A stretch of 64,000 nucleotides of DNA. Source: Phorcus lineatus. Taxonomy: Eukaryota > Mollusca > Gastropoda > Trochida > Trochidae. How positions within the stretch are numbered: position 1 is the first letter of the stretch; each line of letters starts with the position of its first letter. Position numbers and translations under genes: made by a program. Shown here in pieces: positions 39,668 through 64,000 of the stretch. The notes under the pieces are model-generated. The model saw nothing but the letters and a program-made list of their open reading frames with translations. It had not been told where the DNA came from and did no database searches. The stretch lies in the NCBI GenBank assembly GCA_921293015.1, contig OV121081.1:50679877-50743876 (forward strand). The letters are read 5' to 3'.

Positions 39668-39750
39668 AACTAGTTGTTTTTATCACAGAACGCGTTCGCG
39701 GTACGTTTTGACTGTTATGAATGCGTTCATTATGCTTCAACAAGTAGTTG
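39668..39750. repeat. Leftmost recognisable palindrome block
   Basis: CAACTAGTTG at 39668 and GAACGCGTTC at 39688 are exactly 20 bp apart. GAATGCGTTC at 39719 and a CAACAAGTAGTTG word follow in looser register. Confidence 0.6.
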
Positions 39751-39824
39751 ATGTCTTTGTTCTGGTTACACTAAAAACTCGAAATAAATTAAAACGAATA
39801 CAGATATACACAAAATGAAAATTC

Positions 39825-39985
39825 AAAAACACCTCCTCGATAAAAAACGGAAACGGATTAAAATTGTCAATAAATTAAAAATTGAGATTTAAACGATATC
39901 CAAAAAGGTCATTCAAAACTCCTCGATAAAAAACGGAAACGGATTGAAATTGTCAATAAATTAAGAATTGAGATTTAAAAGATAT
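39825..39985. repeat. Two tandem copies of an 87-bp unit
   Basis: CCTCGATAAAAAACGGAAAC begins at 39834 and again at 39921. The units end in ATTGAGATTTAAA followed by a GATAT word and differ by a few bases. Confidence 0.85.
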
Positions 39986-40334
39986 GTGCCCTTCTGAATG
40001 TCTTAAGTTTGGCATATAAGACTCCAACAACTCACGGAGTGGCTTTTTAACCTTGTTTAATCAATGGTGTCATTTGATCGCGAAGTAACGACAGTTACCA
40101 AAACCCTAACCCTTTTTTTAAAGCTTTTTGTCTTTTTACAATGACAATATGAAGGTAGAACGTCGCAATTATGATCGAAAACCGGACAGTGGCGCGCGTT
40201 TAATAGTCAAACGTAATTTTGGAGACTTATCTGAAAGAGTTCATAGTGTTAGTTAGGTTATATAGTGTTAGTTAGGTTATGTAACTAGTATCCATGTATA
40301 CGTATTTGTTCAGGTATGTCCTTTTTAGCTATTT

Positions 40335-40530
40335 AGGCCTGAAAAGGCCGACGGGCTCATGGCATGATAAGACGTCAAGTGTCCGTCCTTCCATAAACGG
40401 TTTGTTTTTTTACTTGTTCTCGAACACCACTAACCCTACGAATTCGAACTCTTGTGTAAAGACTGACTGCTAATAAGAATTCTCATTTATAGTTTTGGTG
40501 ACTCTGTGGCCCCTATTAAAGACTTAATCA
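40335..40530 (-). mobile_element. Fragment of the pearl-like family
   Basis: GGCCTGAAAAGGCCGACGGG, CATGGCATGATAAG and later GGTGACTCTGTGGCCCC look like reverse complements of the right part of the 35469-36394 type. Only a fragment remains. Confidence 0.4.
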
Positions 40531-41070
40531 TTCTCGCGTTCTCTGATCTGATTTCCGGTGTACATATTACAAATCGTAAGATAGATAATAGAGTTTGTCC
40601 CCGGTGTCTTATAACGGTCTTAGGAAATTTCCCTTTAACAGTTTTCGGTTCCTTCTCTAGAAGTGAAAGTCCTTGAAATGTGAAATCGTGTGTTCAGACT
40701 CCTTAGCTAATTTGGATAAAAAAAATATATACTGATTAAAACAAAAGCATCGAACGTCTTCCCTGATATATTTCGAACTATATATTTTGAAGCTTTCCAC
40801 CTCTCGGGCTAAACAAAAATGAATTTTGAAATAGAAAATCAAGATAATTTATTTCACTTGTGAGAAAGGTCATAAAACTGAAACCTTTTAGACCAGACTA
40901 GGAATTATAAAATAGATTTGATGATCACCTGGTCTCGGATAAGGGACACACAAAAACATTACGCTTCTTTAACTAATGTTTTACTCCAACCTTCATCTAC
41001 ATCAAGGACTGTGCTGTACGCAACTGAATCATCCTACCTTCAACAAGGTGTTCAGTGTATCAAGAAACTA

Positions 41071-42350
41071 CCATGGATACGGGTAAAAATAAAAATGCAA
41101 AGAAGTTGAAAACCCAAAAAGGCACATCTCCGCATGATGCCCGTTGCACATACCAAGTTTCGTCGAGATAGGTCTCACCATTTTGGAGTTGTGCTCGGAA
41201 ACAAAATCCTATGTTACGTTTCCATGGAAACGGGTAAAAATAAAAATGCAAAGAAGTTGAAAACCCCAAAAGGCACATCTCCGCATGATGCCCGTTGCAC
41301 ATACCAAGTTTCGTTGAGATAGGTCTCACCATTTTGGAGTTGTGCTCCGGAAACAAAATCCTATGTTACGTTTCCATGGATACGGGTAAAAATAAAAATG
41401 CAAAGAAGTTGAAAACCCCAAAAGGCACATCTCCGCATGATGCCCGTTGCACATACCAAGTTTCGTCGAGATAGGTCTCACCATTTTGGAGTTGTGCTCG
41501 GAAACAAAATCCTATGTTACGTTTCCATGGAAACGGGTAAAAATAAAAATGCAAAGAAGTTGAAAACCCCAAAAGGCACATCTCCGCATGATGCCCGTTG
41601 CACATACCAAGTTTCGTTGAGATAGGTCTCACCGTTTTGGAGTTGTGCTCCGGAAACAAAATCCTATGTTACGTTTCCATGGATACGGGTAAAAATAAAA
41701 ATGCAAAGAAGTTGAAAACCCCAAAAGGCACATCTCCGCATGATGCCCGTTGCACATACCAAGTTTCGTCGAGATAGGTCTCACCATTTTGGAGTTGTGC
41801 TCGGAAACAAAATCCTATGTTACGTTTCCATGGAAACGGGTAAAAAAAAAAATGCAAAGAAGTTGAAAACCCCAAAAGGCACATCTCCGCATGATGCCCG
41901 TTGCACATACCAAGTTTCGTTGAGATAGGTCTCACCATTTTGGAGTTGTGCTCCGGAAACAAAATCCTATGTTACGTTTCCATGGATACGGGTAAAAATA
42001 AAAATGCAAAGAAGTTGAAAACCCCAAAAGGCACATCTCCGCATGATGCCCGTTGCACATACCAAGTTTCGTCGAGATAGGTCTCACCATTTTGGAGTTG
42101 TGCTCGGAAACAAAATCCTATGTTACGTTTCCATGGAAACGGGTAAAAATAAAAATGCAAAGAAGTTGAAAACCCCAAAAGGCACATCTCAGCATGATGT
42201 TGCACATACCAAGTTTCGTCGAGATAGGTCTCACCGTTTTGGAGTTGTGCTCCGGAAACATTATCGGGATGGACGGACGAACGGACGGATGGACGGACTG
42301 GCGGAGACCATTTCAATATCCCCCGCCAACTACGTTGGGGCGAGGGATAA
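41071..42350 (+). repeat. Higher-order tandem array: 151+152-bp dimers, then a GGAC microsatellite
   Basis: The word CCATGG marks each monomer at 41071, 41222, 41374, 41525, 41677, 41828, 41980 and 42131, so intervals alternate 151 and 152 bp. A-monomers start CCATGGATAC and carry GTCGAGATAGG and GTGCTCGG. B-monomers start CCATGGAAAC and carry GTTGAGATAGG and GTGCTCCGG. The last B-monomer has a short deletion and the A-type GTCGAG. The array ends at about 42258 in GGACGGAC repeats and the sequence CGCCAACTACGTTGGGGCG, a potential hairpin. The parallel open frames on both strands are by-products. Confidence 0.9.
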
Positions 42351-42429
42351 AAAGCAACCATAAGGGCATGGTCATGAGGGAGATATTCATTTACTTAATT
42401 CAACAGGTGCGCTCATCATGGAAAACATG

Positions 42430-42850
42430 CAATTAGTTCTCCAACGCGTGAACGAGTTGACACAGACTGTGATCGCGTTGTCGAGTCCCAACACGTTGTA
42501 GACTTGTACATTGTTGTAGATGATAATGTACTTAATGAACAATTGGAAATGAATTAAATAGTTTCTTTTTCAAGTACCTCCTGACACTTTTCAAAAACTC
42601 GAGAATAATTTAGTCAAACGAACTAGTTGTACAAAATCTGAACGCGTTCTAGATATTTAGAACTAGTTCCAGGAAAACATTCAGTTGCAAAGTTGCGATC
42701 AGTTTCCGTACGAAAAGCAGTACTACATTATGCAACAAAATGGTTCTTCATAAAGAAAATGTGTGTTAAACAACTCGGTAACAAGTTCTTGAGTGGTGAT
42801 CGAGTTGTTGAAAATTTGTCCGAGTATGCGTATCATCAGTTTGAACTTTA
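42430..42850 (+). repeat. Palindrome block with perfect 20-bp phasing
   Basis: GAACTAGTTG (42620), GAACGCGTTC (42640) and GAACTAGTTC (42660) are spaced exactly 20 bp. Looser units lie before (GAACGAGTTG 42450, GATCGCGTTG 42471, CAACACGTTG 42489) and after (GATCGAGTTGTTGAAAA near 42798). The block is a diverged copy of 57280-57760. Confidence 0.8.
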
Positions 42851-43079
42851 TTTAATCCCAAAATACTATACTGTCCATTTACAAAGGTTTTTTAGAGATT
42901 TATTTTAATCTTTATTACCATGGTGGAAAAAAGAAAAAAAACTTCTTGTCAAGGTCACTGCATTTAAAGAACAACTACTTGGAAAAAACTGAGTATTACT
43001 CAAGATGAACATAGTGCAAATCTCCATTTTATTCTCCATCTGTTCGTTGTGTATATATCCCTGATGTCATCCGCTAAAA

Positions 43080-43950
43080 CCAACTCAGTAAGCACGAGGA
43101 CCCCTCGAATAAAACAGCTTGACCGACATGTCACTAGTAGAGGAAATGAGGAACACGTTCTGCAAAGCGTGAACTAGTTGATGCAAGTTTGAACGCTACG
43201 CCTCGGAGACCCACGATTCAAACAGGAGGTGTATTGAGCGATACAACTAGGGAAGTGTGGGTATATCTAATACAAGTTGTATGTATGTTATAACTGGACT
43301 TTGACAGATGGAAACCACTTGTACATTTTGTAGATCGATTATTTAGTTGTTGAGTACGTGGGATGAGTTGTATATGTGTGATTTAGTTAGTTGAAGCACA
43401 GGATGAGACGTAGAATTTATATATTTCTGCATGTTGAGAGTGCGGAACACGTATACAAGCTTGATTTAGTTGTAGGGAGCAAGAAACTAGTTGTTCAAGG
43501 GTGATTTAGTTCTCGAGAGAGTGGAACGAGTTGTTAAAGTTTGATTAGGTTGTTGATAGCATATAACGAGTTTAACAAAGGTATATATGTTGAAGATATG
43601 TGAATTAGTATAAATAACGTCAAACTAGTTGTATATTTTTTGTTTAGTTGTTGGCTTATGTTCAAGTTCAATAAGTTGGATCTGCATGTTGTGAGTGCGA
43701 ATAGCGTTGAAGACGTGTTATAAAGGTTTTGAAAGCATAGACTTTTTGCATGTTCGAGGGTTGTTAAGTTGTGAACGATTTGTAGAAATGTGAGTAAGTT
43801 GTTGCCTAAGCGTTTGTGTACGTTATCGTGTACGTAAAGGAGTTGTTTTGAGAGAGATTTAATTGTAGAAAGCCTGGACATGATGTAAAGTTGTGATTTA
43901 GTTTTCGAGAGCGTTGAACAAGTTGTTCAAGTGATATTTAGTACTTGGCT
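43080..43950 (+). repeat. Long decayed palindrome array
   Basis: Units at 43444, 43463, 43483, 43503, 43524, 43543 and 43564 read GAACACGTA, GATTTAGTTG, AAACTAGTTG, GATTTAGTTC, GAACGAGTTG, GATTAGGTTG and AACGAGTTT, about 20 bp apart. Many sites have decayed to GATTTAGTT. Further units appear at 43622, 43641, 43894 and 43915. Confidence 0.7.
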
Positions 43951-45599
43951 GAACATCGCGGAGTGTATGTTTGAGGTCTTGCGATATTGCACCAAAATGA
44001 AACTTAACTATAACACATGAAGGAATTACCAAACACTGACGTGCATGTATCATGTTCATTACCCTGTATACGACAGTGAAGCCGAATTCCAACTGTATTG
44101 TTTTATATCTTTGAAAAAAATCAATAAACATAGCTTTTGAAGTTAAAGATTTCAAAAATGTAAATAATAGAAATATTGCAAGAGTGTGAAATAATCCCAC
44201 ATAAATTTTGCCAAGCAATGATTGATTCAGCACGAGTTACCGTATTTTGAAGTCTGTGACGATTATTCATGACGCCACTATTACGGGCCGTCGAATACAC
44301 TCGCGTTTGAAATAGAATAGAATCGGTATTAAGACGTTATTACCCTCGGAAGTGTATCATATGACACTTACGAATCTCTTTCAAATGTGTATATAACCCG
44401 AGCGAGAATTTAAAAAAATCTCACTCGTTTCGTACAAATCATACAACACACCTCCTCGGGTAATAATCTCTATATATTTAAGTAGCTCAAGAGTTACATT
44501 AAAGGCTACTCCGAACGGAGAATTAGCATTTAAAATGGACGACATAAAATAATTTCTTCAATTTTAAATTTTAATAAAAGCCGGAAAATAGTCTTTGGAA
44601 AGAAATCTTTGGTTTACATTTATCTCGACGCATGTCTACCTACATGTCGATATATCCTTTTAACTGCAATAAAACCTATACGTTTTTGTGACTTGGGTAC
44701 ATGTACATGAGTTTTCCAAAATATAGGTTTCATTAAATGAAATTTCCAAAAGGCTCAGCCACAAATTATGATTGTTCAATATGTTAATTTAGCTAGGCCT
44801 TATGGTTTTATAGTTGAGAAAAGCTGAGACGGAGATAATTTATATATGACCTGTCAGATTCGTTGTGTCTGGGGATGAAAAGTATAAGGACTTATATCCG
44901 TCACCAAATTCTTTTATGATAATCCTAACCAGGTAAGGCCTCTATACGGCCCTTTTGCTTCTGTAGCAGAAGATAAAAAGACCCCGTAGAACATGGGGTG
45001 AGAGTTATCAATATTGACCGAATAAATCCCACTAACGTTACCCAACGTAAAGAAGTGTGTAACTCTAAAAACGAAACAATGCAATTTTCAATTTCTCCTG
45101 TGCCCTAAACTGTTGAACTAATTGAGCGAGACGATGGACAAGTCCAGAAAGACATGAACTAGTTGCTGAAAGACTGGGAAATCCCATTGCAGATTTTAGC
45201 TGGTAAAAATATTAAGTAAGAAAATTGCAAACACTCTTTGAATTTTAGATATCGCTACTATTTATCAAATCATTTTTTTTATGTTTTGAGAAGAAAATAT
45301 AAGTATAAAAAATCGAAAAGAGCTGCTGAATTTACATTTTCTTTCAATTCAAAAGAATCATCAAAGAATGGTAAGCTGTAACAATCAACAATACATTACT
45401 ACTACAGTCACCCCGAAAAGTGCAACGGTGTTAAGATTCAACAAGAAACAAAAAGTTCACCACATGTGCTCTCGTAAAATCGCGTTGAGGACTCGGAAGA
45501 ATGTGAGCAAAGTTTGAATATTAATGACCAAAGTTGGATAAAATAAGTTATTCCTATTCATAAGACATGTTTTATTTGTTTATGAAATACGTTGGAACC

Positions 45600-46340
45600 T
45601 ACCTTGTTGTTTTAGACAGACATTGCTGACGACGTTGCGAACTAGTTGTAAAAAGTCAGAGCGCGTTCTAGACATATCGAACTAGTTCTCCGAAGCTCTA
45701 ATTAAAACGAGTTGTGGATTTGTTGGAAATCATTTGTTATAAACTTTTTCATCATTAAGGAGAAATGATTCTTATTTAGTTTGATCTCATTAAAACTCGT
45801 GAACTAGTTGTATAGCGCTGATCGAGTTGTTGAAAAGTTTATCGAGTTGTATCAGTGCGAACTGCCTTATACTTTGAAAGTCTTAACACGATGATCCAAT
45901 AAACATCTCTTTAGTTCATTAAGTTACCTGAAATAATTCAGATCTGTTTTGGTAATTAGTTTAAGATTTAGATCTCGAACTTAACTTTGTTTTACTAGTC
46001 CTGAGTGAATGAATTCGAATCTATTATTTTCTCGGGGACAAACCAACCTAGGTAGTGTTCAATTGTTTTTTGAACAATCATGTATCTACAATAGCAATTC
46101 AGCATAAGAATTGCTTTTTATACTGTTCATGATCAAAATCGTCACCAGAGAAAGAAGTTACTCTCAGCTTCTAACAAAAACAAGTTGTGAAAAACGTTTA
46201 ACGCGTTCCACCAAAGCTGAACTAGTTGATGTATGCTGGGTCGCGTTGTGGACTGTTTGTGATCAAGTTTTTTAGAGTTTCAAACGATTTGAACAAGTGT
46301 CATTTTGTTGTTCAGTCCAAGGAACTAGTTTAACAAATAA
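45600..46340 (+). repeat. Palindrome block, forward orientation
   Basis: GAACTAGTTG (45639), GAGCGCGTTC (45659) and GAACTAGTTC (45679) are exactly 20 bp apart. GAACTAGTTG at 45801 starts a longer unit containing GATCGAGTTGTTGAAAAG. Further sites lie at 46200 (AACGCGTT), 46220 and 46323. Confidence 0.75.
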
Positions 46341-46368
46341 CTGTAAAATGTTTAATATGTGTAAGTCT

Positions 46369-46721
46369 CAGGGGCGTAGGAACAGGGGGGCTTGGGGGAG
46401 CTTAGCCCCCCCCCCCCCCCCCCCCCCCCCCACTTTTTTTCGAAATGTTTTTTTCAAATTGACTATTTCCCTTTCTACTACATATTTCCCAATAACTGGT
46501 CTAGTATTGTTACAAAACAGTTACTATGCACTACTTTGAGGGTAGTTCTAAAACTACTCTGAGGGTAGAACTAAAACATCCAATCATCCTAATTGATGAT
46601 AAGATGGGATAAGCAGCCAGCAAGTTTCCTTTTTTTAATTTTTTTTTTTTACAAAATTTCACCCCCCTCCCCCCCCCCCCACACACACACACACACTTTC
46701 AAATTCGCTCCTACGCCCCTG
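46369..46721. mobile_element. hAT-like MITE with poly-C and CA tracts
   Basis: It begins CAGGGGCGTAGGA and ends with the perfect reverse complement TCCTACGCCCCTG, 353 bp in all. CAGGGGCGTAG ends are common among hAT-related MITEs. Inside are a poly-C run (46406-46430), a second C-rich stretch and (CA)n. Flanks GTAAGTCT and TAAAGTCA are similar but not a clean 8-bp duplication. Confidence 0.65.
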
Positions 46722-46829
46722 TAAAGTCATTAAATGTTAAATAATTTAGTTATCGTCAACTCAGGGGCTCGATAGTTATTTCATAGACAAATGAAACATG
46801 ATTGATTGAATTAAATCTGCAATACGACC

Positions 46830-46930
46830 ATAGGTAGAACTCGTTCCGACTTTTCAACAACTAGTTCACAACTAGTTCACGCTCTCGCCGAACTAGTTGA
46901 ACAGTTGTAGGACAAAAGAAGAAGTGTATC
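46830..46930. repeat. Palindrome block related to 53.62 kb
   Basis: CAACAACTAGTTCACAACTA and CCGAACTAGTTGAACAGTTG are followed by GGACAAAAG. The same order occurs at 53625-53705, including flanking TTATTTCATAGACAAA upstream. Confidence 0.7.
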
Positions 46931-47711
46931 ACTGAAATCAAGTGGGAGGGCTAATGAAAGCAACCTTAATTGTTGTTGTACAGTTGCCGTTTTCAAGATA
47001 GAAACAATAACTATCAGTCGTTGAAAATTCAGTCACTATCCCACTTTAATTGTGAAACATCAGGAGGTATTTCCATGCAGAGTCAATTTTCCTGCACTTT
47101 GTTCCGCGTGACGTCAACATGAAACTATATGTAAGAACAATAAATTAATTACAGCCAATGAAACAATGGAGTAACAGTTCACGTCCATTGAGCTTTTCCG
47201 TAAGAAAACGTCTACCGTTTATAATAAACGAATTTTCATCTTTATTTGAATTTTCTCGTAAAAAAAGACCTCGACCCAATCACATTCATTTCAGCACACT
47301 ACAGTTGAATTTTTATTATGTTCTGAGCATTTTTAACGCCTCAGTGAACGTTTTGTACAACGTTGCCCACTATCTTGTTTTTGCACAAAATGTTAGCGGC
47401 ACTAGGTATTCAGAAGGTAAATGGTAATTTAACAATTACGTTAATCCAATGTGATAATTATATTCTTTATTCCTCTAACGGAGAGTTACAAAAACATGGA
47501 CGTCTCTGTTTTGCGTTCTTGGTGGTTGTTTTTTCAACACGAGGGGTGTTAGGGTTTTAAATTTTGTCGTTAATTTAGAATCTTCTTATAGGCTTCACTT
47601 AATCTTAAATGTTTTGAATTTGAAATATAACTTTAATCGACGTAGCAATTCTATCCACGCAGCGATGTACGGCTAAAACAAAAGGAGAGCTACTTTGTCA
47701 GTTTAAATCTT
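46931..47711. other. Between palindrome block and L2 3' tail, no gene seen
   Basis: AT-rich sequence with short open frames lacking recognisable motifs. Confidence 0.5.
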
Positions 47712-50700
47712 GTAATAATAATAATAATAATAAAGTAAATTTATAAAGCGCCCAACTCCAGGCACTCAGTGCCTGCTCATAGCGCTACATGGATTAAAAA
47801 CACACTGCAATAGAAATGCTTCACTGGTTGAAGTTAAAGATTGTAGAATTTTTGAAACAGATATGTTTTCAAAGAACTTTTGAAGCTTGTCAAAGATTGA
47901 CATGTCTTAATATCAAGGGGTAAGTCATTCCACAGAGTTGGGGCCATATAAGCAAATGACCTCTGTCCAAACTTTCTGAGACGTGATTTAGGCACTTTCA
48001 GAAGAAACTGATCAGCTGATCTAAGAGTCCGAGTAGGTTCATATCGCTCTATCAGTTCAACAAGATAGCCGGGAGCAGAGTGATACACACACTTGTAAGT
48101 CAGAGTCAGAATCTTAAAATGTACTCTAGCTTGAACTGGGAGCCAATGAAGGGAGGTTAACACTGGTGTTATGTGTGCAGACTTCTTAGTTCTGGTAACA
48201 ACCCGTGCTGCAGTGTTCTGGATATGTTGAAGTTTTTTTAACTGTTCCTGACTTAGATTAACAAGCAAGCTATTTGCATAATCAAGTCTTGACAAAACAA
48301 GGGTTCTTGCCAGCATGTGTGCCATATCATGAGATAGAAAATCTCTTATTGAACCAATGTTCCTAATATGAAAATAGCAAACTTGACAGAGCTTGGAAAT
48401 ATGGTCATCCATTGACAGGTTATTATCAAAAACAACACCAAGGTTCTTGACACACTTAGAGACTTTGATAACGGAGTCTCCAACTTGTACAGTCTCTACA
48501 CCTGAGGCCAACCGTTTTGGAAGAGTCCCTGCAAGAAGAGCCTCAGTCTTGTTGTCATTGAGTTTCAACTTGTGCGTGGTCATCCAAGACTTGATGGTGT
48601 CAGTGATGACTTGTGTTTCTGACACAGCATTGCATGCGTATTGGGGTTTGAACATGTTGAGCAACTGAGTGTCATCAGCGTACATATGATGATTGACACT
48701 AGCGGCAGAAAGGGATTTACCAAGATCAGCAGTATACAACGTAAAAAGGATGGGCCCAAGCACTGATCCCTGCGGGACACCATACTTCAAGATAGCTGTT
48801 TCAGACTTTGTGTCAGCGATACAAACTGACTGAACTCTACCAGATAGGTATGACACGAACCATTTGAGCACAGTTCCATTGATACCTATCGTATCTCTGA
48901 GTGTTGTCCACAGCTGCTCATGGTCGATGGTATCAAATGCGGCCGAGAGATCTAACAATACCATCAAACCGACATTACCATCGTCCACACATGTCAACAA
49001 ATCATTCATGATGCGAAGAAGAGCTGTCTCTGTGCTGTGCTCCGATCTATAGGCAGACTGTTGTGTATGCAGCAAATGATACTCATCGAGATGTTGAGAG
49101 AGTCTAGATTTAACAGCTCTTTCAAGCACTTTAGAGAGGAAGGAAAGGTTAGACACTGGTCTATAGTTATTAAGGGTAGAAACATCCAAATCCTGTTTCT
49201 TTAGAAGAGGTCTCACTACGGCAACTTTGAGACTATCGGGAACAGTTCCAGTAGATAGACTCTTGTTGATAATCCTTGTAATTACTGGAATAAGGATATC
49301 AACATATTCAAGTAGGATTTTTGTGGGCATAGGGTCGAGATCACATGTTGTGGGTTTGCTTTGTCTTATTAGAGTCACAACTTCACTCTCAGTGAATTCG
49401 CTGAAGCAATCCAAGGGCTTTCCAGAAAATGGAAAAGTGTCAAATGAGGAGTCTTCTTCATTAGACACACTGTCCAAGTCTCTCCGTATCTTATCTATCT
49501 TAGAGATGAAATAGGAGTTGAAATCGTTTGCAAGATTTCTATCACATCTGTGTGGAGGCAGAATTGTTTTCTTCTCTTTTCCCATAAGTGAGGAAACAAA
49601 TTGATGTAACATCTTGGGATTGTTTGAACTCCTCACAATTTTGGAGAGGCAGTATTTAGCTTTTGATTTCCGTATAGTCATTGTTACTTGATTTCTAGCC
49701 TGTTTAAATATTTGTCTGTGAACTACCAGTCTGGTTTTTCTCCACTGTCGCTCTGCTATTCGACGCTGCTGTTTAGCTTTCAAGACATCTTCACAGTACC
49801 AGGGAGATGACTTCTTTTGATTCCGTCTCTTCACAACAACGGGAGCATGCTTATTGAATAGGTCAGAAAGCGTTTCATGGTACGAAGTAGTAAGTTCTTC
49901 AATATCATCACGAGGGTTTTGGACCAGTGAAGAATTTATCAAATCTTCCCTAAATCGTTCAGGATTTATATTCTTCAAATTCCGACATTTCACATCAACA
50001 TGTTGAGGCGGTGTATTAGTCAAGGACATCCTGAAGATGATAAGGAAATGATCAGACATCAGTCTGTCTTCGACAGTCACATCCGAGACAAGATCACATG
50101 TACTTCGTGATGCTACCCAGTCAATAGTATGTCCGCTTCTGTGAGTCGGGACACTCACATGTTGAACTAGATCATGGCTATCCAGCAGCTTGCGATACCT
50201 CTTGACCTCGGGGTTGTCACTATTTTCATAGTGAATGTTGAAATCTCCTAGAATGAGAAGATTTTTCTGTAGGTGCTTCTCTAGAAGTAGAGCTAGGTCG
50301 TGTAGAAACTCAGAGAGACGTATCTTGTTAGTCCGTGAGGGCGGTGGTCTATAGATACAAACAGTTCTGAGTGTTATGTCCGAGTATGACACTATGATGT
50401 CCATGCATTCCAGGGAAGCATATTTGCTGTCTACAGTATCCAAAACACTGAGCTGTAGAGTATTCCGATGAATGATGGCAATGCCGCCTCCGGTTGTGTG
50501 AGTCCTAGGGGCATGTTTCAGTGCATATCCAGGGGGAGTCATCTCGGCCATCACAGCCTCATCACCTGACGCCTTGAGCCATGACTCAGTGATGAACAAT
50601 ATGTCTAGTTGATCATCAACAATTGTATCGAATATTTCGAAAGTTTTATTTCGTGATGATTGCGCATTCCATAGCGCAGCTTTCAGTAGATTTCGTTTCC

Positions 50701-51600: not shown

Positions 51601-51614
51601 AGCAGGTCAGAGCA

Positions 51615-52510: not shown

Positions 52511-52513
52511 GAC

Positions 52514-53705: not shown

Positions 53706-54280
53706 GGAGTATTATATGGAATTTAACTTTACTTCCCCACTCGGTTTTCGACTTTATATCGGATCACGTACATGTTTTTGCTTAAATAGTCTATCAATAT
53801 GCATTGCTGTCAAGTCATTTTCGTAATGAAATAAGAATTAGGTTTGTTTAAAAACAATGCAAAGTACCAACATGCTACTTATTTTAATATTTACAAATAT
53901 TGTTTTAGGATCAGAACTGAATTAATATGATGTTTAGGTCATTGAATCCAGGTATATTGACAAAACGTTATGCGTAAGTTTTGTGTTTTTTCTTTGGAAT
54001 TTCAATGTTCAAACGTTATCGTTTCCTTGGGAACAAAGATTTTCGATTACCACATAGATCTAATTATCACAAGCCTTTATTATAAAAACTTTGCATGTTG
54101 TTTACAAAATGTCATCATGGAAAAACATATAATAATTTTAAAAAGGACCTAAATTTTATATAAAATCCCATCTCAGAGATTTAAAACCTAAATTACCTCC
54201 GACACTCATAAAGCTTATTTATCAACAAAATTTATAATTTGCTTTCAAGAACTAAATCACCTTTGTACCACGCCGTGTAC

Positions 54281-54458
54281 CTTGTCCAGACTTATAAAAC
54301 TTTTGAAAGAGATAGTCAGTCTCTCTTGGAATTGATACATGCAAAATTCGAAAACACCTCCATAAATAGAACGAGTGACATTGATGAATAACCTCGATAC
54401 ATTTCAACATTATCTGCATCACATTCGCAATTGTTAAACCAGTTCGAGTTATGATTTA
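54281..54458 (+). repeat. ~175-bp direct repeat, second copy
   Basis: Nearly identical to 52514-52690, including AGAGATAGTCAGTCTCTCTT, a short self-complementary word. Confidence 0.85.
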
Positions 54459-56585
54459 GCCAATTTATCAACATCTGGTGGTCATTTTGGGTTAAATCTG
54501 TGCCCTGTGCCCAAGTGTTTCAGACATATTCAGTATACAGCAGTCATCTTTGCCTCAGTCTGAGCCAAAATGACGTTTGGTTACGTTTTCAGTACGTAGC
54601 AGACATTTGAAAATAGCAAAGTTTACTCACTTTACAAGGCTTATTGCGCGTTTAGCAAAGAAACAAAAAACAGCAATATTTAGGCTTTATTTCTGGAGGG
54701 GAGAGATTGCATGTATTAAGGTTGAAAAAGGGCTAGTGTTATTGTTTAACGAGGTGAAGTAGCTTGAAGACACCTGAATATTGTTCCTAACTGCTGGTAC
54801 ATATATAGAGGGCATGAGGTCGAAATTATTGTGTTAAATGACGATACGAAGTAGAAGGTGTCCGTTCGCGAAGTAGCAAGAAATGAAGCTTTATGCGTTA
54901 CTCTCACATGTCTAATACGCGAGCCAAGTAGTTGCCATCATGATGATAAACACGGCCATGGAAAATTCAGTCGTGCCATGAGAGAGGAGATTCTTTCGAA
55001 CAAGTTCTTATCCGTTAAATTCAGTTGGAATTCTGTCAGTATTTTTGGCTAAATCGTGTCCAAAAGAAAACGTGGAATAATAATGGTAACGGGTCTTATA
55101 AGATACCCTGCAAAACACAATTGTACACAATATAAAATCCATCGCAACATTGCATAAACATACATAACATATATACATAACCTTTGTTATAATACAAATT
55201 GATACAAACCCAATTACATTGTATGGAAAATAGATAAATTCAGTAATTGGTGCTTCATTTGGCGCATACCAATCAAGGGAGGTAATTCATTATGTGCAAT
55301 ACATATTGAGAAACAGTGAATTACGACATACTCTCACATGATATTAACATAAACTAATCATCACATCATGATCATTTTTATTAACCAAATGAACAGAACA
55401 TAATGCCATTAAATGCATAATTGAAAATTTTTCAGTACATGTAAATATGAAATATTCAAACTAGCATTCCCTGAATGTTATTCCGGGATGTTAGTACATA
55501 GCCACGGTGCGTCAGCGCAGTGTGGGGCGAGTAAGCCACTGGTAAAGGCGATAGACTATAGATCACAAGGTATGGCGGGCTTTCTCCGTGCAACATTACC
55601 TGCTGCGGCGCTGTAAGTGAAGGAATTTTGAAAGCGGTGTTAAACACCAATGCACGCCCAGAGAGATCTACATTTTTTAATAAGCTAACATAATTGTTCC
55701 AAACGCACAGATTTTATAACGTCATTTGAAACGTGCTGAGCCTAATGTATACATGACACAAATTTGAACAAATTTTATTTGCTTATGTACTTGCACTCCA
55801 CTCCAGCCATACTCCTCCAAACTACGGTCATACCCAGAGAAAAAAGAAATGAAAGAAACTTAAACTTCATATATCATAAATGTCATGTCATCTTGCTGTG
55901 TTCAGTGCAGTAAGAAATCAACTGATTCAAATAATGCAATGAGAGGACAGATAGGGTTAATTGACAAAGATAGTAAAATGACTCACATTGAATGACTTCG
56001 TCCCGACTTACTTTTTTTTGACTATTAGTCAAACTTGGCTTTTTATGCAATAACCGATTAGGCCCAAAAAGCTTTCACCAGAGGTCGACTAGAAAGTTTT
56101 GCTGTTATAGCATCAGTCCTTTTCGATAAATACGCTCTATAAAATCGGTGAAATAATAATGATTTTAGAAACTTGCTGAACACGCCAATAACAATTAAGG
56201 CTGAATCCTCAATAACAAAAGAATTCACTTATAGAACGCCTATATCATGGTCAAGCCAAAAGAGCCCAAAATTGTTTCCATATCATGACATATATTCTTT
56301 GTACATATTGATTAATTGCATATTAAAAACAAAATCGAGAAAGCAACATAAATTCTACGGTTAAGAGAAATGATCGAATATATTAACATCAAGGTAATCG
56401 CAATACAAACATCAGATGTTATCATCCGGAATATTTGTAAGATATGAAGAAATCGCCATATTCTTCAGGTGATACATTTGATTTATTTAGAATAATAAAT
56501 ACAATACAACCATGAGCAAATCGTAATTGTGATCTTAAAGACATGCATTTATAGACATTTTCAGTAACTCTATTTTCTTGTGGTG
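54459..56585. other. Gap in the palindrome field, no gene seen
   Basis: No phased palindromes and no recognised coding sequence, apart from the SINE-like piece at 55490-55665. An AAGGGAGGTAATTC word lies near 55274. Confidence 0.5.
55490..55665 (+). mobile_element. SINE-like repeat with a TTGAAAGCGGTGTTAAACAC tail
   Basis: CGGCGCTGTAAGTGAAGGAA then TTGAAAGCGGTGTTAAACAC parallels the end of the 60995-61160 copy (ATATAAGTGAAAAACTCTTG, AAAGCGGCATTAAACC). The body upstream differs from the 24-kb and 61-kb copies. Confidence 0.5.
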
Positions 56586-56589
56586 TACA

Positions 56590-57030
56590 ATTTCGTTCAA
56601 TTGGTTTGTTCGAGATTGTGGTGGAAAACTTGGAACTAGTTGTTCAAGTGTCTTAGGTCAAAACTAGTTGAAACAGTCTGTGATCGCGTTCTCGATTCCG
56701 AACGCATTGTAGACATTCGGAAGAAACGCGGCTTTAGGCTGAAAACTGTTCGAGTAACTCGACTAACATTTCCTTCTCACGTTGCTAACACTTATGAATA
56801 AAAACAAACAAATAGTCAATAAAAATTAATGGAAAAAATCAAAGTACGAAAGTGTTCTAGACATTTAGAAATAGTTCAAGAAATTTTGAACTGGTTCTTA
56901 AAGGAGACGGACAGCTGCCAATTGAAGAATCGATTTATGATAGTTTCTTGTTTTGAGATATTCTAATTCGAACTTTTTAACAATTACATGTAGTATTAGA
57001 ACGGTGAAAAGTTGACCGAGTTGGATTCGT
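56590..57030 (+). repeat. Palindrome block, partly decayed
   Basis: AACTAGTT at 56634 and 56662, then GATCGCGTTC and GAACGCATTGTAGAC at about 20-bp steps. GTTGACCGAGTTGGATTCGT near 57011 belongs to the longer unit also seen at 45.8, 57.7 and 63.05 kb. Confidence 0.65.
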
Positions 57031-57279
57031 GTAAACTGTTGTATCAATTTGAACTCTATTCGCAATTCTTTAATAATTCTTTAATTCTTTCGACAAAATT
57101 CGCACAGGTAACAACTATTTCTTGCGCTATGTAGCATGGCATTTGCTGGCACTATCCATCTGTTTATTGTTTACGAATATATATATCTTTGAATTCTATC
57201 AGCCATGTTCGAAGAGTAATATTTCGTGTACATTACGAATAAACAATTGAAGTTTTGGAGTTGATAAATCAGAATCATT

Positions 57280-57760
57280 AAATGATCGCGTTGTCGAGTC
57301 GAAACACTTTGTTGAAATGTTGAAGAAACTCGGCTTTTGAACACACAGCAGGATGATGTACTAAATAAATGTATAATTGGAAATGTATCAAATAGTTTCA
57401 TTTGCAAGTTTGATACCTTTCTACAACTCTAGAATAGTTGAGTCAAACGAACCAGTTGTACAAAGTCTGAACGCGTTCTGGATTTTTAGAACTACCTGTA
57501 GTTCACGAAACTTGAACTTGTTCTCAGTCAGTCGTAAAGTTGCAATCGATTAAAAGACATGCGTTTGTTTCAGTAACAATAGCATGAGTATATTATTAAG
57601 TAACAAACAAACAATTCTTCATACAGAAAAATGTTTCTTTGTTTGAGCGCTAATGCAATTGTTTTACAACTCTTTAACGATTCTAAAGTGCTGATCGAGT
57701 TGTTGAAAAGTTGACCTAGTTGTATGCATGTAAGCTGTGTCAACAATTTGAACTTTACTC
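57280..57760 (+). repeat. Palindrome block, paralog of 42430-42850
   Basis: GAACCAGTTG (57449) and GAACGCGTTC (57469) are exactly 20 bp apart, followed by GAACTACCTGTAGTTC. The surrounding ~400 bp matches the 42.4-42.85 kb block (GATCGCGTTGTCGAGTC, AATTGGAAATG, GAGTCAAACGAAC). Confidence 0.75.
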
Positions 57761-58019
57761 GCTGTGCGCTTCTCAAAGGTTTTAAAGGTGTCTTAAATCT
57801 ACACATTATCATTGAGGAATTAAGAAAAACTACTTTTAAAAGTAACTGCATTTGAAAAACAACTACTTGGGAGAAACTGAGAATTTTAAAAAAATTATTA
57901 GTTAAACGCACTAGTGCACACCAATATTTCTTTAACACAACGAATGCACAGATACTGCATATCTCTCGATATTATTCAAGAACCTCACTCAAATAATCTA
58001 CCTCGTAAGTTATTTAACG

Positions 58020-58537
58020 AATATTTACGTATTCAGGTAGTAAGGTTGATTTTTAAAGACCGGAAGTATTTAATGTTACGGTACAATAAATCCGCATGAA
58101 CTACGATATCGGAAATATTAAGATTTTGCTTATAACCAAAAAAGCGGAAACGGCAGCCGCTTTGGTCAATCTAATAGCGATGCTAAAGCTGTGTTATTAA
58201 GTCGGTTTATTTACAACATTGCTTTCATAAAACATAATCCATTATTTGTTCTCAGTTCAGAGTTTAGGTAAATTAAACAGCTGCACATAATAAGTGTTCA
58301 GCCGCTTTCAAATGTCTTTAATTTATCCGTTTTGTGCACAACTAACCTTAGATTTGTTACATGTCCAAGCCGACAGCGGCTGTCTAAATTTTTTCATTGT
58401 TGATTGCAGGTCAATTGTGAAGAATTTTAAGTATTTCATTGCATCGATAGAAAGCTTAAGTGATTGTATAAGTCCTCTTAAACCTTAAAATAGCCAATTT
58501 AAACCGTAAAAGCGTGCACTAGTGCCTTTAAGGTGCA
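58020..58537 (-). mobile_element. Inverted copy of the ~490-bp repeat at 20.15 kb
   Basis: Its reverse complement follows 20153-20645 from TTAAAGGCACTAGTGCACGC through CTTCCGGTCTTTAAAAATC. It interrupts the palindrome field between the blocks at 57.7 and 58.6 kb. Confidence 0.65.
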
Positions 58538-58616
58538 CATAATGCACATCTCCAAACAATTCGTTTTGTAGTATATAATTCAGTAGGCAAAAAGGCAGCC
58601 TCAAATACCACAGCGT

Positions 58617-58710
58617 GACCGACGTGCAACTAGTTGAGGAAATAAGGAACATGTTCTGCAACGCGTGAACTAGTTGCTGCAAGCTTGAACGCGTTCAAGG
58701 GTTCTAGCTT
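58617..58710 (+). repeat. Palindrome block related to 43.13 kb
   Basis: CAACTAGTTG, GAACATGTTCTGCAACGCGT, GAACTAGTTG and GAACGCGTTC follow one another at 18-22-bp steps. The same order with a few changes is at 43128-43200. Confidence 0.75.
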
Positions 58711-59289
58711 CATCACGTTGTCTACCACAACATTTTCACTTAGAAGTGTTTCAGAAGAATATTTGCCGAGGCCTATCTCTCGGGAACAAGTTAAAGAGCA
58801 CAGATCGCGTGGAAAAGTTGACAGTGACGGATCATAAATTCACTCGTCAGCAGGACCCGAAAGATTCGAAACTTTTTCAATTGTCGGCGCCCTATACAAC
58901 TACCAAAACGCTTCATTGAAGATTACTAAGATTAAATGAAATGTGAAATTAAATTTCTAGTTAGATAGGATATATTCATGATTTATTAGAGTTTTAATTT
59001 TTATCTACAATTGACATGTACACACTTGTTGTGGAACGTGAAACTATTCCCCGAAGCGCAAGTTAGTTCATGTGTTACAATTAGTATTTTTCAACATTTC
59101 AACCCCGGTAAGAATTGTAGTTTTAACATATTTTTCAACTGTTTATGAACAATAATGTAACTTCAATACCTAATCAGTATAAGAAATTTTAATTACTGTT
59201 GAGGGCAAATCAAAATTGTAAGTAAAGAATACTTTCTATTCGTAAATATTGCAATCTTGCTCTTAGCTTTCTTACAAGGAATTTTTTGC

Positions 59290-60840
59290 GAAATCTTGAA
59301 CGCATTCTATCAAAGCTGAACTAGTTGATGAGGGCTGTATCGTATTGCTTTGAAGGGATTAGGACTTTCTAGTAGTTTAGGAGAATAGATATGAACTGTT
59401 TGTGTAATAGGATAACTGTTTTGTTTGTTCATTCACACCTTCAAGTAAACAACACCCCGAGAGTCAGGGTGACGACAGTCGGGATAATAATGAACTTGTT
59501 TGATAAACGTGGAAATAGTGCCGCTATGTGAGTAATATAGTCTTTATTGCCAATAAATACGCAGTCATAAGGAAATGATGATATCATTTTCAGGATATGC
59601 ATCTGGCACCTGACTTAAAATTCGTATGTGTTACTATCTCTTAAGGAAATTTGGAACTAATTCTTTCATTGGCGAGCACGAAAACGAGTTACTAGTTCTG
59701 CAATTGCATGGTGGACGCGGTGTTGCAAAAATAAAATTTTTCATATAAGTCTTAAACGTATTGCAAGAAATTATGTAACAGGCGATTTTTACGAGAAAGG
59801 TTAAATTCAATTTACCTGACAAACCCGAGACATGGGTGAAAGTGTTTCAAATGGTATTTGTAAATATCCTCACACATCAATGACGGAATGTACACCTAGT
59901 TCAATGTTCACCTTAGTTATGATTTATTTTTTTCAACAAACACAGATTTTAAAAAGAATCTATTTAAAAAAATCGAAATCTTTGGAAATATGTTATATGA
60001 TTAAATACGATATGGAGAAATATGGTTTAAAATCACATAGATAGATAAAAGGCACTGTAGCAGGTTGTTAACTTCAACTCTTGCTTTCCTGGGCTGGAGT
60101 TCCCTTGTCCTGTAACTGGGGGCTTTGTACAAAAAGTTGATTTTAAAAAATATATATATGTTTTATACCCCGCCATTTAAATATTACGGGGAAAGGTTTT
60201 GAGCAGTAATGTATTATCTCTTTGGAAACTGTAAACCAATTATATTTACGCTGATATGACTGATAACGAATGCGAAGTTACTGAAGGGTTGTGGGCATCT
60301 TATTTTAATATATCTATAAACTGTGAATAAGTTTTAACTACTTTGACTTAGCACCAAAACAAATCATACCTTTGTTAAATTAAGCTTGCATGAATGTCAC
60401 CTCATTTGAGCGATACGTTAGTCAGGGCGCGGCCTTATTTTGTTTGAATAGCTATGCGTGAAGCAAAACATCAAGATAATTGCATTATTAAGATAACTGC
60501 CCTTGGCATAGTACATTTTAAGCGCTTTTTATGAACAACGTACAACACAATGTCCACTAACAGATAACTTGTATTACCAATACACAATTGTAAAGGTTGC
60601 ACGCAATAATCTACCCGTCACCGTGATTACTGATCTTTCCTCTCCTGAATATATTCAAATGTGTCACATTTATAAGAATAATTATATTTAGTCAAGCTAT
60701 GAAAAAAAAATATATTTGATATTTTTGTTTCCCGAAATAATCGGCAAATTACTTAAAGTTTTGACAGCACCGTTGCTTCATCAAAGTTTTTAAAACATTT
60801 TTATACCTGTCGATAGCAAAATGGAATATGAATAAGTTCT
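59290..60840. other. Weak field section, no gene seen
   Basis: One clear site (AACTAGTT at 59319, preceded by GAACGCATTC) matches the 46190-46230 pair. The rest is AT-rich without recognisable genes. Confidence 0.45.
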
Positions 60841-60859
60841 TCGAACTTCAACAATGCGC

Positions 60860-61700
60860 CTCGTGCATCCAACTACTGATTCACGCTTTATCAACTTGTT
60901 CCACGCTAGACTGAAAAACAAACATCAAATGTCTTTAACAACTTACTCACGCTTCTATAACGCACCAACATAAAGATCTCGTTTCTACAACTCGTTCCCG
61001 CCAGGGGCTCGGCAAAATTGTCTGCAGTAGAGAACTGTTCTACACGCAGTCAGGTTTGGGTGCAAAGCTACACTGAGTTTCAGCGCAGTACCACCCATGC
61101 AACAATAATAGCAGCCGCGATATAAGTGAAAAACTCTTGAAAGCGGCATTAAACCCTATATCACCTCTCATCACATCTACAACTCGTCCCGTTCATCTCA
61201 TAATTATACCACGCGTTCTCATCTTCTTAAAAACCACCAGCAACTAAATAACTTAACACTTGATATCTAACAGTTTGTTTTACACATTTGACAAATATTT
61301 GTAAAACTCGTTCCTTATATTAAACAACAAAATGATACATGTTCAACTCGTTCGAAACTCTCAACAACTTGACCACATATCTTTACTTTTGAATCCGACT
61401 TGTTGTACCCCTTAAAGCCTTTCAACAACACGATCACAATTGTGCAATGAGTTCAACGCTCCGAAAAACGTATACAAAACGTCTCGACCATTCACAAATG
61501 AAATAATACGTTTATGAATCCGCCAACTTCATTAACAACAATCTCTAACACGGTCCACACAGAAAAAAATATAAAAAAACATCTTGCACATCTAGTTCCT
61601 AACCCACAGCATTTCAATAATTTTCCACGTTAACAGCGTTCACGGGTGCAGTGAACAACTAGATTGCGCTTCGTTCCGAAACATTTACGTCAACTATCCT
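60860..61700 (-). repeat. Decayed, inverted palindrome stretch
   Basis: Words such as CAACTTGTTCCACGC, CAACTCGTTCCCGCC, CAACTCGTTCG, CAACAACTTGACC and CAACAACACGATCAC recur at roughly 20-bp multiples in the CAAC-first orientation. A SINE-like copy interrupts it at 60995-61160. Confidence 0.55.
60995..61160 (+). mobile_element. SINE-like repeat
   Basis: CCCGCCAGGGGCTCGGCAAA to CAGCGCAGTACCACC is nearly identical to 24149-24238. It continues into GCAGCCGCGATATAAGTGAA and TTGAAAGCGGCATTAAACC. Confidence 0.6.
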
Positions 61701-62759
61701 CATCACGTTTCATGACTTTAAAAACTTTTCGCTGTTGATCGTCGGCATTTATAAAAACACTTGTGATAGTTTTCGTCGTTTGAATCCTGCAACTGATCAT
61801 GATGAACTCGTTGTGCAGGAAGACGAACTTGTTGAGGCCTGAGAAAGAGTTGGCGCGTTGAAAGAGTTCTCTAATTCGTAGTGCTTCCGATGCACATGCA
61901 TTTCCATAAATGACATGGTGACCTGATAAGCAGAGGTTGAATAAGTTAAATCACTTCCGTATGAAGTGATACATGAATACTAAGGAAGTTAATTTGCTCA
62001 TCCCTCATGTAACCATACTCAATTGACACAAACAAAATAGCGGGGTAAAATGTTTACCATTAAATTTCATTCTCATCATGGTACGACTCCTTTTTTATGT
62101 TGACATACATGACAATTTCATGAAAATTGGCTTCTGCATTAAGCTTCAGCATCATGTTTAATCTAACAGAATCAAACGCACTGAGCCTTTAATATCTTGA
62201 CAAATTGTAGGTCGGTTCCGAATATTTGCGGAAAACTCGACACGCGTTGATTAGTCGGAACGCTTTGTACATTTTGGGAGAGAAATATGACTTCCATTCA
62301 GCAACGAATTGCCTTGAAAAGGATAGAAATTGTTATCCCTCACACAGTCGGTGGACTAGTTCGCCAAAAGTAGAATCCTTAGTTGTAAAGAGGGTGAAAC
62401 TAGTTCTCAAATTCTGGTCGTATTGAAGATTTCACTCGGTTAAGATGTTCAAATGATAAAAACTTGCACACTGATGTTTATAAAAACAACTTTTTAGCAG
62501 TGTTGGGAAAAATTGTAAATTACTACGATGGAAAAAGTCAAAGATATATTGAAAGATTCAACAGTAGCTGCAAAGGGTCACAGCTGCTACAGACTTTGAA
62601 ATGCGCGAGGACTCGACACGCTGTGAACACATTATTGTTACATACATGTACATGTTTAATGTATTTTTAAACAATCATCGAATGACTTATTGATCAAATA
62701 TGTTTCATCTCTCTGAAAAATACCCTGCAACCAATCCTGTCTTCCAAAATGGAAAAACT

Positions 62760-63110
62760 TTAGATATTGCGAACTAGATGTACAAATCCGGAACGCGTTC
62801 AAACTTTGGTGAACTAGTTCTCAACATATGGAACTAGTTCATCAAGGCTCGCACATGTTGCATATTTGGAATCGTTTTTCAGTTCAAGCAGACCAAAACG
62901 GGTTCGCCTTTGTTTGAAATGGTTCAACATTATGGCAAAATACCATATTTGATAAAAATTGCCATTAGCACAAACGTTAGCAGACACTTTTTAAGTTTGG
63001 TCTCAATACAAAATTTACATCAACTCGTGAACTAGTTCTAGAGCGCTGGTCGAGTTGTTGAAAAGTTGACCAAGTTGTACTAGTGTGAACTGTCTTCTCA
63101 TTTATAGCAA
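62760..63110 (+). repeat. Palindrome block with five exactly phased units
   Basis: Units start at 62771 (GAACTAGATG), 62791 (GAACGCGTTC), 62811 (GAACTAGTTC), 62831 (GAACTAGTTC) and 62851 (GCACATGTTG), all 20 bp apart. A second cluster at 63028-63105 carries GAACTAGTTCTAGAGCGCTG, GTCGAGTTGTTG and GACCAAGTTG. Confidence 0.85.
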
Positions 63111-63392
63111 ATGACCAGATTCAAATTCATACCTTTTCAAGGTATTAGCTATATTAAGATTTTATGCATCTTCGATAATTAGTACAAATTTACCCGTGAC
63201 AATTCAAACTCGGTAGAAATACTTTCATATCGCTGCGTTTCAAATTGTAATCAAGTTTTGGAAAAGTTAAACAAGTTCTCTTCAAACAGAACTAGTTGAC
63301 TTAGGCTTGATAATGTTGAGTTAGACTGTTAGGAAGATTTGCAAACAATACGTTGATATTGAGCTGTAACACATGTATCTCTTTCATTGCAG

Positions 63393-63488
63393 GAGACTCG
63401 TAAAATCAGGGTGAAAAGAATCTACACAATTTCTGTTGAACGATCAAGCCATATAAACGTGGAACTCGTTCCTCTGTGGGACAAATAG
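63393..63488 (+). CDS. Possible small terminal exon of an unknown gene
   Basis: An acceptor (CTCTTTCATTGCAG) precedes 31 open codons, starting ETRKIRVKRIYTISVERSSH and ending VELVPLWDK, with TAG at 63486-63488. It contains the palindrome-type word GGAACTCGTTCC. There is no recognisable homology and no partner exon, so confidence is low. Confidence 0.15.
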   Translation, partial: ETRKIRVKRIYTISVERSSHINVELVPLWDK

Positions 63489-63613
63489 TTGTTGATTTTA
63501 TTACATTTTGCCTGATGAACGTTGCAGAATACGTACCTGGCTTTATGATTTGAAATTCATTATTCGTAAGATGTACCAGTTAAAAAATGTGGAACTTTAG
63601 TTGTTTTACTGGC

Positions 63614-63851
63614 GAACGTGTTGCGAAAAGAAATGAAGTAGTTCTTCAACTGGTGAACGCGTTGTTGGAAAAGGATGAACTAGTTCAACAGCTGGCGAAC
63701 GTGTTGCAGGAAGTTAGAACTAGTTCATCGCAGGGGAACCGAATTAGTTGTATAAAAGGAGAATCTGTTCCCATAAGTTGGAACTTATCTTACAACTGAT
63801 GACCGTGTTGGAAGGAATGTTGAACTGGTTGTGTAACAGGCGAACGTTGTG
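63614..63851 (+). repeat. Longest regular palindrome array (12 units)
   Basis: Units start at 63614, 63635, 63655, 63677, 63697, 63717, 63741, 63761, 63781, 63801, 63822 and 63842. The first six alternate GAACGTGTTG or GAACGCGTTG with GAAGTAGTTC or GAACTAGTTC. The next six are decayed (GAATTAGTTG, GAATCTGTTC, GACCGTGTTG, GAACTGGTTG). In one frame it reads DELVQQLANVLQE, echoing the 51.7-kb array. Confidence 0.85.
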
Positions 63852-64000
63852 AAGTAGACTGGCTCTGACTTATGTGAATAAAGGGAAGGGGTGAAATTTA
63901 ACCAAAATGTGTTGATTGTTTCTTAATTATAGAAACGTATAGTGAGTTAAGTAAAGAATGTTAATTGAAATTAATAGAGGTATGTCCATTTTATGTCGAA

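Follow-up and report, generated by a model that had tools for sequence, protein, structure and literature searches.

The palindromes between positions 39668 and 63851 of the window (the whole 64-kb stretch of DNA analysed) may mark what is left of large mobile elements, non-coding and foldback-like, whose cis arrays would bind dimers, a reading of the sequence to which we give slightly less than an even chance. It is favoured because the sites exceed chance and keep a 20-bp phase, because their arrays are nearly confined to this field, because gaps between paralogous blocks are rarer in the arrays than outside, and because blocks have been copied both ways, with long arrays near the outer ends of an inverted repeat; moreover, a six-frame Pfam search of the parts covered gave no match, and Galileo and Muta1 provide precedents. 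The sites, their phase and clustering, the duplication of blocks in both orientations and the inverted repeat with its outward-lying long arrays are directly visible, as is the lack of recognised coding sequence beyond the LINE in the regions searched.

As judged from word counts, all 30 copies of GAACNNGTTC and all 11 of AACGCGTT in the window fall into the field, together with 41 of the 43 copies of AACTAGTT and 97 of the 114 copies of AACNNGTT. The chance tests were run on the 18,640 bases that remain once the recent 39-bp array, the satellite and the LINE region have been taken out. These contain 81 AACNNGTT, whereas 300 dinucleotide shuffles gave a mean of 9.6 and at most 18, and 34 AACTAGTT, with a shuffled mean of 0.6 and at most 3. 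Exactly 20 bp separate 14 pairs of AACNNGTT, and 23 pairs are 19-21 bp apart, compared with means of 0.34 (maximum 4) and 1.05 (maximum 7), respectively, when 81 sites are placed uniformly in 2000 trials; in bases 1-38000 none of the 16 AACNNGTT lies 19-21 bp from another. Over the whole window the spacing peaks at 20 bp, with 42 pairs versus 15 at 21 bp. The 20-bp phasing reported in a preliminary description of this DNA is confirmed by these values, which lie well above both nulls (shuffle and uniform placement). All of the runs cited there as examples are present, although several members are degenerate: exact AACNNGTT occurs at all three positions of 42620/42640/42660, at two of three in 45639/45659/45679, at three of five in 53437-53517 and again in 62771-62851, and at six of twelve in 63614-63842, where the steps range from 20 to 24 bp. 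Base-by-base autocorrelation does not separate the field from the control, the z values at lag 20 being 2.9 (42.4-47.1 kb) and 3.4 (61-64 kb) compared with 4.0 for bases 1-35500, whereas the 20-bp excess does appear in the pairs of palindrome sites and of GTT words (43 pairs at lag 20 versus 13.5 expected in the field; 13 versus 13.6 in the control). In the AA/TT spectra, periods near 10 and 20 bp are only slightly raised.

HMM decoding resolves the field into 39 clusters of at least two units, in both orientations, plus eight weaker stretches, and the decoded arrays cover 22.5% of the field, on which the model was fitted, compared with 0.1% of bases 1-35500; within 47560-51440 nothing was decoded. 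The palindromes are concentrated in the 24-kb field as previously described, which is, however, not continuous but broken up by a LINE, a satellite and array-free stretches:

39660-39756, plus strand: outermost left cluster, about 3.6 units (HMM decoding), separated from the rest of the field by the satellite insertion
41071-42260, plus strand: 151-bp satellite array of 7.9 copies, interrupting the field and followed by a GGAC/GGAT-type microsatellite
42428-43933, plus strand: seven clusters (42428-42510 decodes on the minus strand), including arrays at 43438-43719 (13.5 units) and 43760-43933 (7.6 units)
45108-46913, no strand assigned: five clusters, among them 45627-45725 and 46179-46337
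47834-51232, minus strand: non-LTR retrotransposon ORF inside the field, an open frame of 1132 codons (endonuclease and reverse transcriptase), in which the HMM decodes no palindrome array
51470-52481, plus strand: left arm of the inverted repeat, partner of 63013-64000
51620-51934, minus strand: longest array, 15.7 units, mostly a recent 39-bp tandem repeat
52403-53696, no strand assigned: six clusters (52403, 52630, 52823, 52982, 53426, 53607; HMM decoding)
54404-54450, minus strand: weak cluster, 2.2 units long and with a posterior of at most 0.85, within a nearby copy of 52510-52683
56621-59347, no strand assigned: eight clusters (56621, 56840, 57006, 57283, 57406, 57659, 58622, 59285)
60840-61860, minus strand: three clusters (60840; 61297-61534, 10.1 units; 61799)
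62200-63849, plus strand: seven clusters, the last being a 277-bp array at 63573-63849 (13.5 units; HMM decoding)
63013-64000, minus strand: right arm of the inverted repeat, still similar to its partner at base 64000, where the window ends

Blocks of the field are copied in direct and inverted orientation: 56621-59347 is in part paralogous to 42470-43196 and 46053-46294, and 60840-61860 is in part an inverted copy of 43289-43991 with 56% identity. The inverted repeat is at least 1 kb long and carries long arrays close to its outer parts, those of 15.7 and 13.5 units lying about 150 bp inward of the outermost aligned bases of the arms. With the arrays masked, eight self-hits are left, versus two weak hits to a reversed control, and three of the eight are inverted pieces of 51470-52369 and 64000-63154. 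The arms 51470-52481 and 64000-63013 hold arrays, and the termini of a putative foldback-like element would lie beyond the window or behind the LINE; since the similarity of the right arm extends to base 64000, its true end lies outside. Several observations stand against the foldback-like reading, namely that no element end, target-site duplication or second insertion is seen within the window, which the right arm leaves at its last base, that clusters are not restricted to the ends but also occupy the interior, that the arms are only about 68-70% identical when gaps are counted (76-82% over ungapped columns), that the palindromes have only a slight advantage between copies, and that no transposase was found in the regions searched.

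The palindromes had also been described as far better conserved than the spacers, which holds when single units are compared, the palindromes being themselves the selection criterion there, but only slightly between paralogous blocks. There, palindromes are 83.2% and spacers 79.4% identical (16 overlapping pairs), the palindromes being better kept in 11 pairs, the same in one and worse in four, and sites are intact in both copies in 19 of 45 cases versus 13.7 expected under neutrality (17 overlapping pairs). Both copy-to-copy tests favour the palindromes somewhat, as may be expected because the sites were defined through the motif match. Equal divergence had been named beforehand as an outcome that would refute the description, and it applies in part to the later history; the constraint on the palindromes looks old, and recent evolution looks mostly like decay. 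Gap values between the paralogous blocks are 0.06 and 0.04 in arrays versus 0.19 outside.

If the field descended from a plain satellite, several old tandem arrays with a 20-, 39- or 40-bp unit would have been seeded, duplicated and left to rot without any binding function. The recent repeat at 51617-51912, which has a 39-bp unit with two palindromes, agrees with such a history, as do spacers that nearly match the palindromes in identity between blocks, and alternating site centres could reflect a 40-bp ancestral unit. We nevertheless consider it unlikely, as spacers resemble their neighbours no more than they resemble distant spacers, and neutral tandem decay would not spare the palindromes in this way. 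Spacer identity is 3.00 versus 2.78 of 10 in a looser test, which allowed four of six core bases and so included chance chains, and 3.69 versus 3.56 of 10 (13 pairs) with at least five of six core bases in both bounding sites, the 39-bp array being left out each time; only this array contains neighbouring monomers that are alike over their full length, as in a simple 20-bp satellite. The drop to eight self-hits upon masking also speaks against plain decay. Sites for dimers on one helix face fit the phase and spacer pattern better than simple decay of a 20-bp satellite does, and for the foldback-like elements, palindromes recurring without alike neighbouring spacers would suggest site-wise constraint at fixed spacing in the ancestral sequence. 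The docking array for a dimeric protein suggested in the preliminary description is therefore supported in part, by the 20-bp phase and the unlike spacers, and weakened by the small lead of palindromes over spacers between block copies.

The distances between clusters bear on another possibility, that of a host chromosomal platform, i.e., a locus that regulates in cis or organises the chromosome, such as an insulator or a site of pairing or recruitment, with about one cluster per nucleosome, bound by a host dimeric factor. Leaving out the eight stretches under two units and the 39660 cluster, 20 of 35 neighbouring distances fall between 140 and 270 bp, with none below 140 bp (p 0.03) and none at 270-360 bp; none of 3000 random placements gave as many in that range, which was, however, picked after the distances had been seen. 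The best period is 210 bp (p ~0.01), and the occupancy autocorrelation peaks at 160-180 bp (z ~3). Arrays restricted to one field within the window, and weak exon-like matches to LDL receptor class B repeats on its left, also agree with a host locus. Yet further autocorrelation peaks remain below z 1, single segments peak at 180, 160 and 210 bp, the block copies are not independent, the modules have been rearranged in either orientation and lie among mobile elements, and the paralogous copies decay almost freely, making a host platform rather improbable.

With the 39-bp array left out, 17 of 22 neighbour pairs of strict sites combine a TA with a GC centre, a tendency to alternate in which clusters with common ancestry are not independent. 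In an earlier count, a centre fell into neither class in 21 of the 52 neighbour pairs beyond this array. A 40-state model is ahead of a 20-state model by 67 (seeded TA/GC; BIC difference -389) to 90 log units (random starts) with 60 extra parameters; its best-scoring solutions contain no clean division into TA and GC centres, and the alternation therefore rests on the pair counts. An action of the palindromes through folding of transcripts or single strands, as RNA or cruciform hairpins, is very improbable. All eight folded clusters score lower than their shuffles do on average (z from -0.96 down to -5.16; five of eight below -2.8), but this stability comes from the self-complementary words themselves, and the spacers flanking a would-be loop are complementary at 2.76 of 10, equal to the 2.76 expected by chance (71 pairs, 39-bp array omitted), so hairpin covariation was rejected. 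Response elements of the p53 family consist of two RRRCWWGYYY half-sites 0-13 bp apart. This half-site is matched by 20 of the 30 GAACNNGTTC words and occurs 30 times in the field outside the LINE versus six times in bases 1-39000; still, full elements were rejected with only two qualifying pairs across all 64 kb, and TA-centred sites often have a GC-centred one between them, so that arrays of p53-family elements are highly doubtful. Among the papers listed as matching GAACTAGTTC, one concerns p53 response elements.

Beyond the inserted retrotransposon, no gene was recognised in the ~24-kb stretch. When 42410-47300 and 51440-64000 were compared with Pfam in six frames, no match reached E 0.05, and thus neither a transposase, which a non-autonomous copy need not carry, nor a coding domain of a VANC-type protein was found. 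Single-ORF Pfam matches at E 0.5 in the field outside the LINE all fall under the curated cut-off, the best being Polo_box_4 in 52791-53120 (E 0.0091, 16.9 bits versus 27), and Rfam (gathering scores) and tRNA scans returned nothing. Three field-derived patterns had no match in a viral contig collection, while a general three-palindrome pattern matched 3 viral and 92 prokaryote stretches. These 95 loci were rejected as relatives and read as coding heptad repeats, given their spacing (21 bp in 89, 19 bp in four, 20 bp in two) and the open plus frame spanning the match in 70; the field differs from most of them by its 20-bp peak. A literature search for palindromic 20-bp mollusc repeats and phased palindromic transposon sites found no paper.

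Besides Galileo, FB is another foldback-like long-TIR DNA transposon. The accessible portions of the reports describe several transposase THAP sites in the long inverted repeats of Galileo (PMC3688188), and nine 12-bp subterminal repeats and diverse interiors of non-autonomous copies in Muta1, a type 2 foldback element, with target-site duplications of 8-9 bp in mosquito MULE families (PMC5225508). As far as described there, these elements share with the field long inverted arms carrying tandem short repeats; they differ in that the field sites are 10-bp dyads at 20-bp phase spread throughout rather than restricted to the ends, and in that no terminus, target-site duplication or transposase is seen within the window. 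We infer for the field one or several such elements, since decayed and rearranged, whose cis parts would be clusters of dyads GAAC(T/G)(A/C)GTTC at intervals of 20 bp, or about two helical turns, which would let dimers of one protein dock adjacently on one DNA face. This protein would probably be encoded elsewhere, by an autonomous relative or the host, and might either pull the element ends together for transposition or keep the element chromatin open. If the arrays bind a dedicated protein, they would be a ready-made bait for finding it, and animal mobile elements could spread protein-docking arrays across tens of kilobases, the helix of the DNA and perhaps also nucleosomes determining the spacing; if they are merely decayed repeats, an old phased array can persist as scattered clusters.

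Plasmid iterons are direct repeats within replication origins and resemble the field in having repeated sites about two helical turns apart, whereas the field consists of clustered dyads in an animal genome. VANDAL elements of Arabidopsis, according to the available excerpts, encode the anti-silencing protein VANC, which binds a short motif and lowers methylation; this motif is dense in tandem-repeat-derived non-coding parts of the element, as are the 39 clusters in the field. The VANC21 motif YAGTATTAY has a single orientation and the word palindrome does not occur in the available part of its source, whereas the field belongs to an animal and consists of dyads with a 20-bp phase. An animal family of mobile elements with phased dyad arrays throughout its non-coding body, one cluster per nucleosome, which would recruit an element-specific dimeric protein to open or protect chromatin as a counterpart of the plant VANC targets, is decidedly unlikely; that protein would perhaps be of Myb/SANT type, because the half-sites favour AAC[T/G]. 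The Helentron-associated HINE elements of oysters are, in the available part of their description, repeat-rich non-autonomous elements of bivalves with monomers mostly of 140-180 bp, and the palindrome field has neither this monomer nor this anatomy. Two other arrays of the window, at 35593-36340 and from 41071 to about 42300, do look like HINE elements, the satellite at 41071-42260 being similar to the array portion of non-autonomous elements of Helentron type.

The palindromic words lie where the preliminary description had placed them, in positions 39668-63851 (the field), and far above chance: by word count over the whole window, all 30 occurrences of GAACNNGTTC, all 11 of AACGCGTT and 41 of the 43 of AACTAGTT fall inside it. 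Once the LINE region, satellite and recent 39-bp array are omitted, the remaining 18,640 field bases contain 81 AACNNGTT, compared with 9.6 in dinucleotide shuffles, and 14 pairs of them exactly 20 bp apart, compared with 0.34 under uniform placement; bases 1-38000 hold 16 AACNNGTT and zero pairs at 19-21 bp. A weight-matrix scan (threshold 3), with the matrix derived from the field itself and the 39-bp array counted in, yielded 42 pairs at lag 20, the mean per lag being 3.3. Many members of the example runs named in that description are degenerate. Autocorrelation run base by base fails to show the effect, because lag 20 also reaches z 4.0 in the control region.

The extent was mapped with a 20-state periodic HMM. 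Training on the field returned a unit of approximately GAACTAGTTSTASAAATCTT with most information within positions 1-10. Decoded on both strands, the model marks 22.5% of the field, a fitted figure; the controls, which were not fitted, give 0.1% (bases 1-35500), zero (47560-51440) and no more than 0.33% (five shuffled windows). The 47 stretches in 39660-63849 include 39 with at least two units, and beyond the field two weak stretches are decoded, at 6822 and 16712. The long arrays and the two elements interrupting the field are:

51620-51934, array of 15.7 units (HMM)
63573-63849, array of 13.5 units (HMM)
43438-43719, array of 13.5 units (HMM)
61297-61534, array of 10.1 units (HMM)
41071-42260, 151-bp satellite
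47834-51232, minus strand, non-LTR retrotransposon (LINE) frame with endonuclease and reverse transcriptase

The LINE, whose open frame spans 1132 codons and which has an AAT repeat on the 3' side (about 47711-47733), is probably a young insertion into an old field. Its protein shows 39-51% identity to its relatives (best 120 of 3086 found, 8000 candidates scored), and the three organism-named entries among those listed are all molluscs (Littorina twice, Patella once), compatible with a bivalve source though no proof of one. A six-frame Pfam search of 42410-47300 and 51440-64000 gave zero families at E 0.05.

Field modules recur in both orientations, as seen by comparing the window with itself:

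42470-42997 with 57283-57885, direct
43082-43196 with 58577-58692, direct
46053-46294 with 59129-59396, direct
51470-52481 with 64000-63013, inverted

With the arrays masked, eight self-matches are left at E 0.1, versus two matches (E 0.02-0.03) to a reversed control, and therefore the motif alone is not the cause of these duplications. The best is a local duplicate (52510 with 54283, E 2e-27), and the inverted arms retain E 2e-11; their repeat continues up to the final window base, so that the arm end lies beyond.

The view that the palindromes are far better conserved than their spacers holds from unit to unit, while from block to block their lead is small. Within arrays, the spacers look unrelated and the palindromes repeat: neighbouring 10-bp spacers agree at 3.00 of 10 positions (117 pairs), compared with 2.78 for spacers of other chains (20,000 pairs), and under a stricter site definition at 3.69 (13 pairs, standard error 0.50), compared with 3.56 in distant pairs. 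The independent evidence here is the lag-20 excess itself, because the palindromes were selected for recurring. In the ancestral sequence, dyad and phase were either constrained or originated in phase. Across paralogous blocks, identity is 83.2% in palindromes (711/855), 79.4% in array spacers (667/840) and 74.3% in other aligned bases (1022/1375), palindromes being ahead of spacers in 11 of 16 block pairs, equal in one and behind in four, and AACNNGTT is intact in both copies at 19 of 45 sites (13.7 expected), both tests leaning towards palindromes because of the site definition. The arrays also carry fewer gaps, and in a seven-segment alignment some copies keep spacers adjoining lost palindromes. 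Past constraint on the palindromes is well supported; the case for recent constraint is weak.

TA-centred palindromes adjoin GC-centred ones in 25 of 31 classed neighbour pairs outside the 39-bp array, if AC, GT and AT centres are taken to be decayed GC; with labels shuffled, half of the pairs do so (p ~0.001, too small a value given shared ancestry). Strict TA and GC centres alternate in 17 of 22 pairs, and a 40-state model leaves the alternation undecided. T or G directly follows AAC in 68/82 left and 69/82 right halves (control AAC words, 351/807). The Myb core is YAAC[T/G]G, which this half-site preference resembles at the sequence level. Full p53-type elements are almost absent (two pairs).

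Among 35 distances between neighbouring clusters, 20 fall in 140-270 bp, a range chosen after the distances had been seen, with none below 140 or in 270-360 bp; the best period is 210 bp (p ~0.01, allowing for all periods tried). Given this post-hoc range, the differing segments (180, 160 and 210 bp) and the weak later autocorrelation peaks, the data do no more than suggest a nucleosome-like spacing.

The nearest mechanisms are those of the foldback-like elements Galileo (PMC3688188) and Muta1 (PMC5225508), with transposase sites within long arms, and of VANDAL elements (PMC5735166, PMC10398659), whose non-coding parts are dense in VANC motifs. Judged by its anatomy, the field would work as such a docking array, membership in neither family being implied. 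No relatives of the field were found in the scanned collections, described as viral contigs and prokaryote genomes, with no animal genomes. Bacterial GAACNNGTTC arrays phased at 21 bp (loci L004, L018, L040 (Saprospira grandis) and several Treponema loci) lie mostly across open frames and probably encode heptad repeats.

Two other arrays of the window, 35593-36340 (145 bp) and the satellite from 41071 to ~42300 (151 bp), are each followed by an ACGG/GGAC-type microsatellite and are similar to the Helentron-type HINE elements of oysters, which have 140-180-bp arrays with GTCC-type microsatellites (PMC7492417). On the minus strand, 21490-21615 and 22572-22679 weakly match LDL receptor class B repeats (one just over and one under the curated cut-off) and may be exons from a receptor-like gene of the host; a weak sub-cut-off match to phosphatidylethanolamine-binding protein (~2175-2348, minus) is perhaps also a host exon. 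About 12 direct repeat pairs (70-91% identity) in roughly kept order between 2010-12061 and 31353-39212 suggest a segmental duplication joining these regions and ending just left of the palindrome field.
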